Notes under the pieces: model-generated
What the model was told of the DNA's origin: nothing
What the model saw: only the letters and a program-made list of their open reading frames with translations
Database searches by the model: none
Source: Acetobacteraceae bacterium
Lineage (GTDB): Bacteria; Pseudomonadota; Alphaproteobacteria; Acetobacterales; Acetobacteraceae
Reading direction: 5' to 3'
Length of the DNA stretch: 64,000 bases
Assembly: GCA_030041375.1 (NCBI GenBank)
Contig: JASHOA010000033.1
Span: forward strand, 1 to 64,000
Part shown: in pieces, positions 5,316 through 63,101 of the stretch
How the letters are laid out: each line of letters starts with the position of its first letter
Position numbering within the stretch: position 1 is the stretch's first letter
Program-made: the position numbers and the translations under genes

Positions 5316-6788
5316 TTGTCGACGGCGCATGATGCGACCCTGCGTACCGTGGGGTGGGTTCTGGAAAGCGGGGGGCCGATGCTGCGTTCGCTTCTGGAAA
5401 TGGTCGGGGCCGATCCGGAACTGGCCGGAAACGTTACGATCACCGGCGCCGATCCGGTCATCGACACGCCCTTCCGGCTGGGCGAGACGGCGGCCGCGGT
5501 GTTGGGCGCGCTCGGTGCGCTGATCGCCGAGACCTGGCGGCTTCGGAGCGGAGAAAGCCAGCAGGTCGGAATCGAGGTGCCGGCCGCGGTGCTGGCGCTG
5601 CAGAGCGTGATGCTGCAGAGGCAATGGGGCTATCCGATCGCGCTGACGGAGCCTCTCTACCCCACCGTTGCGATCTATCCGACGCGGGACGGCCGCTTCA
5701 TCATGCTCAATGGCGGCTATCCGCTGCTGCGCGACGGGTTGCTGGAATTGCTGCGCTCGGCGGACAGCGCGAGCGCGGTGGCGCGCGCCGTCGCGGAGTG
5801 GGATGCCGAGGAGCTGGAGAAGGCGATTGCCGATCGCGGCCTGTGCGGCGTCGTGGTGAGGAGCGCGGCGGAATGGCGCGCGCATCCGCAAGGTGCAGCC
5901 ATCGCCAGGCTGCCCGCGGTCGAGATCACGCGCATCGGCGATGCCCCGAAAGTTCCGTTTCCAGCCATTCAGTCCGCGCCGGATGCACGCCCGCTTTCCG
6001 GCATCCGGGTGCTCGATCTTACGCATGTCATTGCCGGGCCGACCTGCGCGAAAAGTCTGGCCGAGCAGGGAGCGACGGTGCTGCACATCTACTGTCCGTC
6101 GCGGCCGCAACTGCCGCCCTTCGACATGGATACCGGGCACGGCAAGCGCACGGCCTTTCTCGATCTGGCGGGCCCGACGGCGACACGCGATCGGGCCACT
6201 CTCTCGGGCCTGGTGCGGCAGGCCGATGTGTTCTCCCAGAGCTACCGGCCGCAGTCACTGGCGCGGCTTGGCTTTTCGCCGGAGGGGCTGGCCAGGCTCA
6301 GGCCAGGCATCGTCGTCGTTTCGACCGACTGCTACGGCTGGGCCGGGCCGTGGCGGTATCGACCCGGCTTCGAGCAGCTTGCGCAGTGCGCGAGCGGGAT
6401 GGCGGTGGGCCAGGGCAGTCCGGACAATCCTGTTCTGGTGCCGATGGTTTATCCGAACGACTACATCAGCGGGTTTCTCGCCGCGCTGGGAACCGTTGCG
6501 GCGCTGATGCGGCGTGCCCGGGAGGGAGGAAGCTGGCAGGTGCGGGTCTCGCTTTGCCGCACGGCGATGCTGATCCAGGATGAGGGCGAGGTCGATCCGA
6601 AACGACGGCCGCCGCCGCCGATCGCGGATGACGACCGCGCGCGATACATGGCGGAATGCGACAGCGCGATCGGGCGGCTCAGCTATCTCGGGCCGGTCGT
6701 CAGGATGTCCGCAACGCCGGGGCGGTGGGACCTGCCGCCGGCACCTCTCGGCGCGCACCCGCCGCGCTGGCCGGAGGCGGCGCCATGA
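5316..6788 (+). CDS. CaiB/BaiF family III CoA-transferase with unusual domain order
   Basis: 490 residues if TTG 5316 is the start; Met22 (ATG 5379) is an alternative. The canonical CaiB N-terminal motif (IRVLDLTHVIAGPTCAKSL) does not appear until about residue 230. It is followed by GHGKRTAFLDL and by NDYISGF, whose Asp aligns with the catalytic aspartate region. Residues about 40-215 resemble the middle/C-terminal part of a CaiB chain. The protein therefore looks permuted, or a fusion of a partial and a fuller copy. Family III enzymes move CoA between carboxylic acids through an enzyme aspartyl-CoA anhydride; the substrate here is unknown. It overlaps the patatin gene start by ATGA, so the two are translationally coupled. 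Confidence 0.85.
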   Translation: MSTAHDATLRTVGWVLESGGPMLRSLLEMVGADPELAGNVTITGADPVIDTPFRLGETAAAVLGALGALIAETWRLRSGESQQVGIEVPAAVLALQSVMLQRQWGYPIALTEPLYPTVAIYPTRDGRFIMLNGGYPLLRDGLLELLRSADSASAVARAVAEWDAEELEKAIADRGLCGVVVRSAAEWRAHPQGAAIARLPAVEITRIGDAPKVPFPAIQSAPDARPLSGIRVLDLTHVIAGPTCAKSLAEQGATVLHIYCPSRPQLPPFDMDTGHGKRTAFLDLAGPTATRDRATLSGLVRQADVFSQSYRPQSLARLGFSPEGLARLRPGIVVVSTDCYGWAGPWRYRPGFEQLAQCASGMAVGQGSPDNPVLVPMVYPNDYISGFLAALGTVAALMRRAREGGSWQVRVSLCRTAMLIQDEGEVDPKRRPPPPIADDDRARYMAECDSAIGRLSYLGPVVRMSATPGRWDLPPAPLGAHPPRWPEAAP

Positions 6789-59275: not shown

Positions 59276-59289
59276 GATTGACCCAAATC
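59276..59289 (-). promoter_or_regulatory. Near-consensus FNR/FixK site before the receiver gene
   Basis: On the minus strand it reads CTGATTTGGGTCAA, one mismatch from TTGA-N6-TCAA. Its centre is about 97 bases before the receiver ATG (59186), close to the other sites' spacing. It overlaps the last codons/stop of the kinase gene. Confidence 0.45.
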
Positions 59290-60886
59290 AGTCGATGCCG
59301 GGTTGTTGAGTGCGCCGGTCTCCTGCCGGCTTGTCGGTCCCCTCGGGACTGGGAAGGGTGAGGTGGAAGACGGTGCCACCGCCCGCCGCGTCCTCGGCGC
59401 GGAGTTCGCCCCCGTGTGCCTCGACGATCGTGCGGGAGACGGAAAGACCAACTCCGAGCCCATTGGGCTTGGTGGTGACGAACGGCTCGAACAGCCGGGC
59501 GCGGACCGATTCCGGCAGGCCAGGTCCGCTGTCGGTGACGCTGATCTCAACCATGTCACCGACACGTCTGGTGGCGATCGAGAGCTCGCGCCGCGGTGAG
59601 GCAGCCATGGCTTCCGCGGCGTTCCGTATCAGGTTGACGAGCACCTGGTGGATCTGGATTCGATCGATGACGGCTTCCGTCGCATCTTCGGCGACGCGTA
59701 TTCCGAGCTTCAGTTCCGGGCCGATGCCGACCAGGGCCAGCGCGCTTGCTTCCTCGATGACCTTCGAAAGACTTTCGGTCTTTCTTTCCGTTTCCTCCTT
59801 CCGCACGAGCTCGCGCAGGCGCTGTACGATTTGCCGGGCGCGCTCGGCCTGCTCCGAGATCCGCTCGATTGCCGCCTGCGCGCCCTGCACGTCGCCGGCG
59901 GCGAGCAGCCTGCGAACCGCGTTGCGGTAGATCGCCATTGCAGCCAGCGGCTGCGTCACCTCATGCGCCAGAGCTGAAGCCATCTGACCGAGCTCACTCA
60001 GGCGCGAGACATGAACCAGCTCGGACTGCAGTTCAGCGAGGCGATTTTCGCGATCCTGCCGTTCGGTCAGATCCCGAACGAAGCCGGCGAAGAGATGCGC
60101 TCCCGGCACCTTCACTTCTCCAACCGCCAGTTCGATCGGGAAGGTACTGCCATCCTTGCGCTGGCCAATGATGACACGGCGCGTTCCGATGATACGGCGT
60201 TCGCCGGTGGCGAGATAACGTTCGAGGTAGCTATCGTGAGCCTCGCGATAGGGAGAAGGCATCAGCATGCTGACGTTTCGACCCAGGACCTCCTCCAGGC
60301 TGAAGCCGAACAGGCGCACGGCGGTCGCACTGAAGGACCGGATGAGCCCGCGCTCGTCGATGACCACCAGGGCATCCGGCGCCGTCTCCAGGATCGAGGT
60401 GAGCAGCGCTTCGCGGCGCTCCAGCTCCTGCCGGGCACGATGCGCGGCACTCTGGTCGCGGGCGATCTTCGAGATGCCGACGATGTTGCCTGGGCGATCT
60501 CGGATCGGCGAGACGCTGAGCCACACCGGGATCAGCCGGCCGTCCTTGCATCTTCGCTCGGTCTCGAACTGGACAATCCGTTGGCCGCGGCGAATCCGGT
60601 CGAGAATCGCCGTCTCCTCCATGAGGCGATCAGGAGGGATGATGAGGGTGATCGGATGGCCGATGATTTCGCTTGCCGCGTAGCCGAACATCGACTCCGC
60701 CGCCTTGTTCCAGGACGTCACAATGCCGTTCAGATCCTTGCCGACGATCGCGTCATCGGAGGACTCGACGATCGCCGCCAACTGCATGCGCGCTTCATCG
60801 GACGACATTTCGGCACGGATATCGGTTTGATGATCGGGCAAAGGAGAGCAACCTTCAGGTTCGATCGAGCCGAACGTACCGGGCAC
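59288..60886 (-). CDS. FixL-like PAS-PAS sensor histidine kinase
   Basis: 532 residues from GTG 60886; ATG 60808 (Met27) is equally plausible and neither has a clear ribosome site. PAS1 (about 31-145), PAS2 (about 160-275), then HisKA with phospho-acceptor His308 ([12 protein letters not shown]) and HATPase with N-box ([10 protein letters not shown]) and TDSGPGL. The stretch [25 protein letters not shown] is almost the FixL text. FixL's heme-ligating His (DPHIIG) is Arg231 here (ERRIIG), so this PAS should not bind heme in the FixL way. No membrane segments: soluble kinase. Signal unknown. Confidence 0.93.
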
Positions 60887-61046: not shown

Positions 61047-61349
61047 CTAAAAGTTGACGACCTTCGCATCGGGTTCGCTGGCAGCGGCGTGAAACGCGTT
61101 CATCCCGCAGAGCTTAACCCGCTGATCGAGGCTCTCAGCGGCCAGTCCACGCGCCTCGACGCAGGGCCGACAGGCCCAGAGTGTCACCCGCGGATCGGCA
61201 GCGATTTCCTCGTAACGGTTCGGCGGACCGACCGGAACGATCCTTGCGCCTGCGCCCTTCACGGCAACAAGGACGGCGTCATGGAACAGCATGAAGGTGA
61301 CCCGATCGCCGCGCTGCAGCGCGGAAGCGGCGAACAGGAACGGCAGCAT
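61047..61349 (-). pseudogene. DsrE/DsrF-family gene, 5' end cut by element B
   Basis: 100 residues from ATG 61349. In-frame codons before that ATG read G-P-T-D-P-T-R-A, which is the DsrE family's first-loop motif, and directly before them is TAG, formed by the CTAG edge of element B copy 3. The first beta strand of the fold is therefore missing. The remainder (LPFLFAASALQRGDRVTFMLFHDAVLV ... ACRPCVEARG ... CGMNAFH) is otherwise normal and may still be translated. DsrE proteins take part in sulfur transfer or are stress proteins of unknown role. Confidence 0.7.
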
Positions 61350-61373
61350 GGCTCGTGTCGGATCCGTCGGCCC

Positions 61374-61455
61374 CTAGCCCGCGATCGCCCGAGGCGGAAT
61401 CGTCGGAGGGCGTGAATCGCTGGCTCGAATAAACCGCACGACCCGTGTGAGCCGC
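61374..61455 (+). repeat. Element B, copy 3 (partial)
   Basis: Left end CTAGCCCGCGATCG intact; similarity to the other B copies fades after about 61450, before the right terminal CTAG. It is inserted in the 5' part of the dsrE-like gene, and lies between that gene and the FNR-type site at 61472. Confidence 0.8.
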
Positions 61456-61485: not shown

Positions 61486-61552
61486 TGAGGACTCGGCACG
61501 GCTTGGTTAAACTATTTATTGAATGAATGTACCGCAAACGAAAGCATCAAGG

Positions 61553-62026
61553 ATGGCAAAGCACCGGGAATTACTCATCGCCATAGCCGATGGCGAGCAC
61601 GTCCGCTTCGTGCGACCAGGCGAGAACGGCGCACCGCACGAGGAAGCGGCGCTGCATTCGCCCACGGCTCACATCCGCTCAACCGAGCTTCGCTCCGACC
61701 ATCCGGGGGCTGCCTTTCACAGTGATTCCTCGGCACATCATGCGCTGGCCCCGCACAGCGACCCGAAGATCCTTGAAAAAGCCAATTTCGCAGAAATCGT
61801 GGCCGCCAGGCTCAATACGGGAGCAGCGCAAGGAGCGTTCGATAACCTCGTTCTGGTCGCAACGCCGCGCAGTCTGAACGCGATCCGCCAGCATCTCGAT
61901 GCCGCAACGGCTGCGCACATTGTCGGCACACTCGCGAAGGATCTGGTCAAGATCCCGGATGCCGAACTTTGGCCGCATCTTCGGCGGTGGCTGCGGCCAA
62001 CGCGCCGAAGGACAAAGCGAGGGTAG
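61553..62026 (+). CDS. Host attachment (AtsE/baeRF12-type) family protein
   Basis: 157 residues from ATG 61553 (AAGG just upstream, and the preceding FNR box leaves too short a leader for ATG 61523). Family features: HRELLIAIADGEHVRFVRPG at the start, FAEIVAARLNTGAAQGAFDNLVLVATPRSLNAIRQHL in the centre, and LAKDLVKIPDAELWPHL at the end, as in the proteobacterial host-attachment proteins related to archaeo-eukaryotic release-factor eRF1 folds. Biochemical role uncertain. Alone on its transcript before hsp20. Confidence 0.82.
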   Translation: MAKHRELLIAIADGEHVRFVRPGENGAPHEEAALHSPTAHIRSTELRSDHPGAAFHSDSSAHHALAPHSDPKILEKANFAEIVAARLNTGAAQGAFDNLVLVATPRSLNAIRQHLDAATAAHIVGTLAKDLVKIPDAELWPHLRRWLRPTRRRTKRG

Positions 62027-62753: not shown

Positions 62754-62889
62754 CTAGTACCAACTCTCGCTCATAAGTGACTCACTCACATGACCTCGAA
62801 ATACCTTGCCCTCTCCCTCTGGGAGAGGGCGGCGCGAAGCGCCGGGTGAGGGTGCCCGTGTATCACCCAAGTATGATTCCGGATACTAG
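62754..62889 (+). repeat. Dispersed element C, copy 2
   Basis: 136 bp, closely similar to 35431-35564. CTAGTACCAACT to GGATACTAG. Contains the CCCTCTCCC/GGGAGAGGG and GGCGC/GCGCC hairpins. Its last CTAG (62886-62889) is also the first CTAG of element B copy 4. Confidence 0.88.
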
Positions 62890-62992
62890 CCCGCGATCGC
62901 CCGCGGCCGAATCGTCGGAGGGCGTGAATCGCGGGCTCGCATAAACCGCGAGACCCCTGTCGGGCTGCACAGTCAGCCCGACAGGGGTCTAG
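62886..62992 (+). repeat. Dispersed element B, copy 4 (107 bp)
   Basis: Complete: CTAGCCCGCGATCG ... GGGGTCTAG, with inverted pairs AGCCCGCGAT/ATCGCGGGCT and GTCGGGCTG/CAGCCCGAC both intact. Shares its left CTAG with element C copy 2 and is followed after one base by the CTAG of element A copy 4. Confidence 0.9.
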
Positions 62993-62993
62993 G

Positions 62994-63101
62994 CTAGAGC
63001 AGTTCGCGATCAGACGGAATCGGCTGATCACGTGAAGATGCTTGCCAAAACAAAAAGCTGGAGCAGTTACCGTGAGCCATGGCGAACGGAAATTGCTCTA
63101 G
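62994..63101 (+). repeat. Dispersed element A, copy 4 (108 bp)
   Basis: Complete, CTAGAGCA ... TTGCTCTAG, same length as copies 1 and 3, with a few substitutions (e.g. in the CTGATCGCG arm). It closes a stack of three different elements that fills most of the 486-base gap between hsp20 and chaB. Confidence 0.9.

Follow-up and report, generated by a model that had tools for sequence, protein, structure and literature searches.

The window (the whole stretch of 64,000 nucleotides analysed here, from an Acetobacteraceae bacterium) contains the remnant of a member of the DsrE/DsrF-like family from which the nine first codons are gone, and this remnant is very probably a pseudogene of recent origin, produced by a miniature repeat element, here termed element B. 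According to this explanation, a recent ancestor would have carried a normal 117-residue DsrE-family gene, and the left half of element B would have taken the place of the gene's 5' end (the nine first codons with the start, the ribosome-binding site and some 60 bp of DNA before it), either in one step or by insertion followed by deletion of the flank. This would have left a pseudogene truncated at its 5' end, with a TAG in frame where gene and element meet (Table 1). We infer that the insertion of the element caused the loss, that this happened recently and that the remnant yields no useful protein. Gene breakage by a repeat element is an ordinary, known kind of event; the dsrE case provides a clean before-and-after example, in which a small repeat removes a gene start while a sister genome retains the intact state, and it reveals an abundant repeat family in an Acetobacteraceae genome.

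Table 1. Features in and around the truncated dsrE-like gene (positions in the window).
Feature	Position	Strand	Evidence or remark
PAS-PAS histidine kinase (FixL-like), conserved neighbour	59288..60886	-	Pfam, G001 comparison
5'-truncated DsrE-family gene	61047..61373	-	Codons 10-117 + TAA stop, starts GPTDPTRA; PF02635, G001 identity, orthologue alignment
Longest remaining ATG-started ORF, 100 aa	61047..61349	-	ORF list; without ribosome-binding site
In-frame TAG at junction	61374..61376	-	Plus-strand CTA; G001 has TGG (Trp9), the two remote orthologues Tyr9
Element B, left half	61375..61437	+	Core pattern, consensus, G001 comparison; copy edge 61374/61375
FNR/FixK-type box TTGACTCTCATCAA	61472..61485	.	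Conserved in G001
-10-like TAAACT	61508..61513	+	32 bp from box centre, Host_attach side
Host_attach (PF10116) gene, divergent neighbour	61523..62026	+	ORF list, Pfam
Full-length element B copy	62886..62992	+	Absent in G001

The remnant and its intact orthologues

The 108 codons 3' of the TAG match PF02635 (Pfam; 35.7 bits against a cut-off of 22.7, 1.1e-8), and since this match begins only at position 10 of the 116 profile positions, the N-terminus is missing in the window gene. On the minus strand the frame 5' of ATG 61349 translates as ...IAG*GPTDPTRAM, just as an earlier reading of the sequence alone (the sequence-only reading) had described it, with GPTDPTRA meeting a TAG. The ORF from ATG 61349 is without strand 1 and the conserved first loop, and falls short of a complete PF02635 domain.

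An intact, element-free gene of 117 aa is found at the orthologous locus of G001 (Acetobacteraceae MAG JOPF016, same genus), flanked as in the window by a FixL-like kinase and Host_attach. The G001 protein begins MHFVVSTSWGPTDPTRAMLPF, and GGGAGG located 5 bases 5' of its ATG constitutes a good ribosome-binding site. The window frame is 94% identical to this orthologue. Two remote orthologues, from a Burkholderiales MAG and from Bradyrhizobium sp. AS23.2, have a similar beginning and are each exactly 117 aa long; an ancestral short gene was ruled out, as all three orthologues have 117 aa. No orthologue was matched in the remaining three genomes of this genus, two of which are incomplete. The profile match and the intact G001 gene both agree with the proposal of the sequence-only reading that a dsrE-like gene is cut by its copy 3 of element B. 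That reading had asked for an intact relative, and G001 supplies one at the same locus; it had also named two observations that would speak against a cut gene, namely an equally short gene in relatives devoid of the element, and an N-terminus encoded in another frame. The G001 gene is long and element-free, and no N-terminus was found in the other frames of the window or, by comparison with G001, beyond the element B copy.

A search of the window genome for this protein gave the window gene as the sole match and no second intact copy. Another, uninterrupted DsrE-family gene is present elsewhere (L162, G000:C28:30183-30521), too distant to be found by this search.

Both C77 and C80 are invariant in the four orthologues, and C77 ends a predicted strand (72-77). 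C77 or C80 may be the equivalent of the DsrE cysteine Cys78 (PMC3397948). The intact protein is probably a small DsrE/YchN-like protein, which perhaps handles sulfur via the conserved C77-x-x-C80.

Element B, the junction and the origin of the stop

A full element B extends over about 107 bp from CTAG to CTAG, is non-coding and contains two different hairpin modules; its ends, GCCCGCGATCG and GACCCGTGTCGG, are inverted only weakly. The 47-nt core pattern gave four matches in the window versus none in 100 shuffles, and a core pattern was encountered at 258 places in the 4.5-Mb genome versus none for a reversed control. About one sixth of 72 copies sampled as loci are without the right half, and several of these break after AATAAASCGC like the dsrE copy, a break position that is partly selected for since the pattern used to collect the sample ends at AATAAASCGC. 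Several orthologous sites in G001 are element-free, among them that of a mosaic at 62754-63101. The element B family is abundant and apparently recently active in this genome. The search of the draft genome for a transposase with matching ends was negative, the fetched flanks of five DDE_3 matches being without such ends; nor did element B match anything in the plasmid collection, and literature searches returned no description of the repeat.

CTAG-edged elements were also seen in other arrangements. In the window mosaic three different ones stand in a row, none of which is present at this site in G001, and at another site (L014 versus L069/L070) the CTAG-edged elements differ between the two genomes. 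Tandem arrays, whose units share the edge bases, consist either of 63-bp half units (L118, about 1208-1460) or of full 103-bp units (G000, C32 about 5941-6182 and C70 about 5908-6046).

At the dsrE locus, where G001 has about 88 bp (L003 1826-1913), the window has 61-63 bp (61375 to 61435-61437) in their place. Gone with the 88 bp are the ribosome-binding site and the start, along with codons 1-9 and some 60 bp further upstream. The element copy agrees with the element B consensus at 62 of 63 positions, indicating that it is young. At the right junction the bases 61436-61437 (GC) are common to both sides, and homology to G001 resumes at 61436. The plain insertion envisaged by the sequence-only reading has to be modified, as only half an element is present and the native DNA is gone too; moreover, the end given there, 61455, runs into native DNA, the element copy stopping at about 61435-61437. 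A simple insertion splitting the gene was rejected, as the 5' part is absent beyond the element. Deletion from a full element via the 6-bp match GACCCG gave a poor fit to the junction, with native-like bases before it and element-like bases after it; a break after AATAAACCGC with the 2-bp overlap GC fits better. Other half copies also break at the point seen in the dsrE copy.

The edge bases bear on how the stop arose. Duplication of a target TA would account for two empty sites, namely L010 (CTAA becoming CTAG...CTAA) and L013 (one CTAG becoming two). At four of the six readable empty sites (dsrE 61374-61377, mosaic 62754-62757, L007 and L028; L008 and L022 were not cleanly readable and were left out of the six) G001 has CA versus TA here, a result with a probability of 5e-4 under plain divergence at 8% per site. 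CTAG occurs 21 times in the window versus about 197 expected from base composition, while CCAG occurs 407 times. Many of the 21 CTAGs are edges of repeat elements. Because CTAG is rare and CCAG common, new CTAG sites may constitute a large share of the targets, and two orders of events remain for the dsrE stop. The stop was earlier attributed to the CTAG edge of the element; the TAG does lie at this edge, but insertion and a prior change of TGG to TAG both fit.

The reversed order is quite credible, if somewhat short of an even chance. Here the TGG of Trp9 would first have become TAG (CCAG to CTAG on the plus strand), killing the gene and creating a CTAG target preferred by the element, which would then have inserted at the TA, the flank being deleted afterwards. 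It would agree with the fit of L010 and L013 to TA duplication, with the large share of targets that fresh CTAG sites may make up, and with the behaviour of IS630-type elements, whose target TA is duplicated on insertion (PMC2170065); the same paper cites Tenzen and Ohtsubo 1991, whose title names a preference for CTAG. On the other hand, CA in G001 at four of six sites would also be expected if the element brings its own T. That element B inserts at CCAG-like sites with no need for a pre-existing TA, bringing the T itself, appears unlikely; if it does, each insertion would make new CTAG edges and, in the right frame and orientation, a TAG stop.

The remaining frame and the neighbouring FNR/FixK-type box

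The best explanation, a young pseudogene, competes with the view that translation from ATG 61349 yields a 100-residue product which serves as a functional, shortened DsrE protein. What is left of the frame is open, with a dN/dS versus G001 of 0.21, like that of neighbouring genes. With the remote orthologues used to polarise the changes, 2-3 replacements (L36F, E102A and perhaps residue 30) fall on the window branch versus 4-5 in G001. These values speak for a useful protein, but E102A alters a residue common to the other three orthologues, a ribosome-binding site sought 5' of ATG 61349 is absent, and the product would be devoid of strand 1 and the conserved first loop. The sequences show no decay apart from the truncation, and the changes are so few that a recent loss and a kept gene would look alike.

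The folding of the truncated protein, proposed earlier as a check, was assessed by AlphaFold2 prediction, giving a pLDDT of 87.1 for the intact form versus 68.7 for the truncated one (four sequences in both predictions, with only one of five models scoring well in each). The intact model has a strand at 2-7, the GPTDPTRA loop and a helix at 14-29; the strand falls in the missing codons, in line with the earlier claim that the first beta strand is lost. In the truncated model the first helix comes out as a strand, and the 100-aa form is predicted to fold poorly. A 100-residue product, which the sequence-only reading had allowed for, is possible in principle, but with neither a ribosome-binding site nor a good predicted fold, a useful short protein is highly improbable. 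A false join across a dispersed repeat is more improbable still, for although the genomes are drafts and the element is highly repeated, the repeat spans only about 62 bp of a 74-kb contig, and the native DNA to its left and right is unique and keeps the G001 order.

The FNR/FixK-type box upstream, from which dsrE had been thought to be cut off, turned out to have a -10-like sequence on its Host_attach side only; none was seen on the dsrE side in the window genome or in G001, and the box was rejected as a dsrE promoter for this reason. The distance of 32 bp from the box centre to the -10 is the spacing of a class II FNR-type promoter. By its sequence context the box most likely serves Host_attach and did not drive dsrE. 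For Host_attach itself, ATG 61553 is the likelier start, because ATG 61523 is not kept in G001. The window has four such TTGA-N6-TCAA boxes (57022, 61472, 62052 and 63407) where about 0.15 are expected from composition, one of them about 90 bp upstream of an Hsp20 gene, and together they look like a low-oxygen regulon cluster. The G001 Hsp20 gene (L003 2622-3215) appears frameshifted relative to the intact window gene, which could be a sequencing error.

Comparison with known systems

By its PF02635 match above cut-off, the window frame groups with the DsrE/DsrF-like family (DsrE, TusD, YchN). The predicted fold of the intact orthologue matches the DsrEFH, TusBCD, YchN and MTH1491 structures, those of the DsrE family best; by sequence, the G001 protein matched no solved structure at E values up to 1. 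The gene scores below the TusB, TusD and SaoD/DsrE equivalog cut-offs (for TusD at most 17.3 bits versus 89.25), and, in contrast to DsrEFH and TusBCD, it is adjoined by no dsrEFH or tusBCD partner genes, its neighbours being the kinase and Host_attach.

RUP of Streptococcus pneumoniae is a non-coding element of about 107 bp, present in about a hundred or more copies, which has TA ends and inserts into TA (PMC2229807). Element B is like RUP and other TA-flanked MITEs in its length, its non-coding nature, its many copies, its TA ends and, at two empty sites, apparent insertion into TA, but differs from RUP in being G+C-rich, with weakly inverted ends, two separate hairpin modules and frequent half copies, and in that no matching transposase was found and the target is CA in G001 at four of six sites. 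In comparison with an IS630/Tc1-mariner-type MITE, two empty sites fit the TA duplication and four have CA in G001, while none of the five DDE_3 matches has shared ends in the flanks fetched from the draft genome. GTAG-tagged REP elements carry the GTAG tag at one end and measure 20-40 bp (PMC3733652). Element B is not one of these, having CTAG-like edges and a unit of about 107 bp or a half unit of 63 bp. Presumably it resembles the RIME of rhizobia, the likeness to RIME and CIR being one of description and not of sequence. CIR of Caulobacter and Brucella has TA ends and no terminal inverted repeat (PMC2229807), and it is with such alphaproteobacterial mosaic palindromic elements (RIME, CIR) that element B shares the combination of palindromic modules in mosaics.
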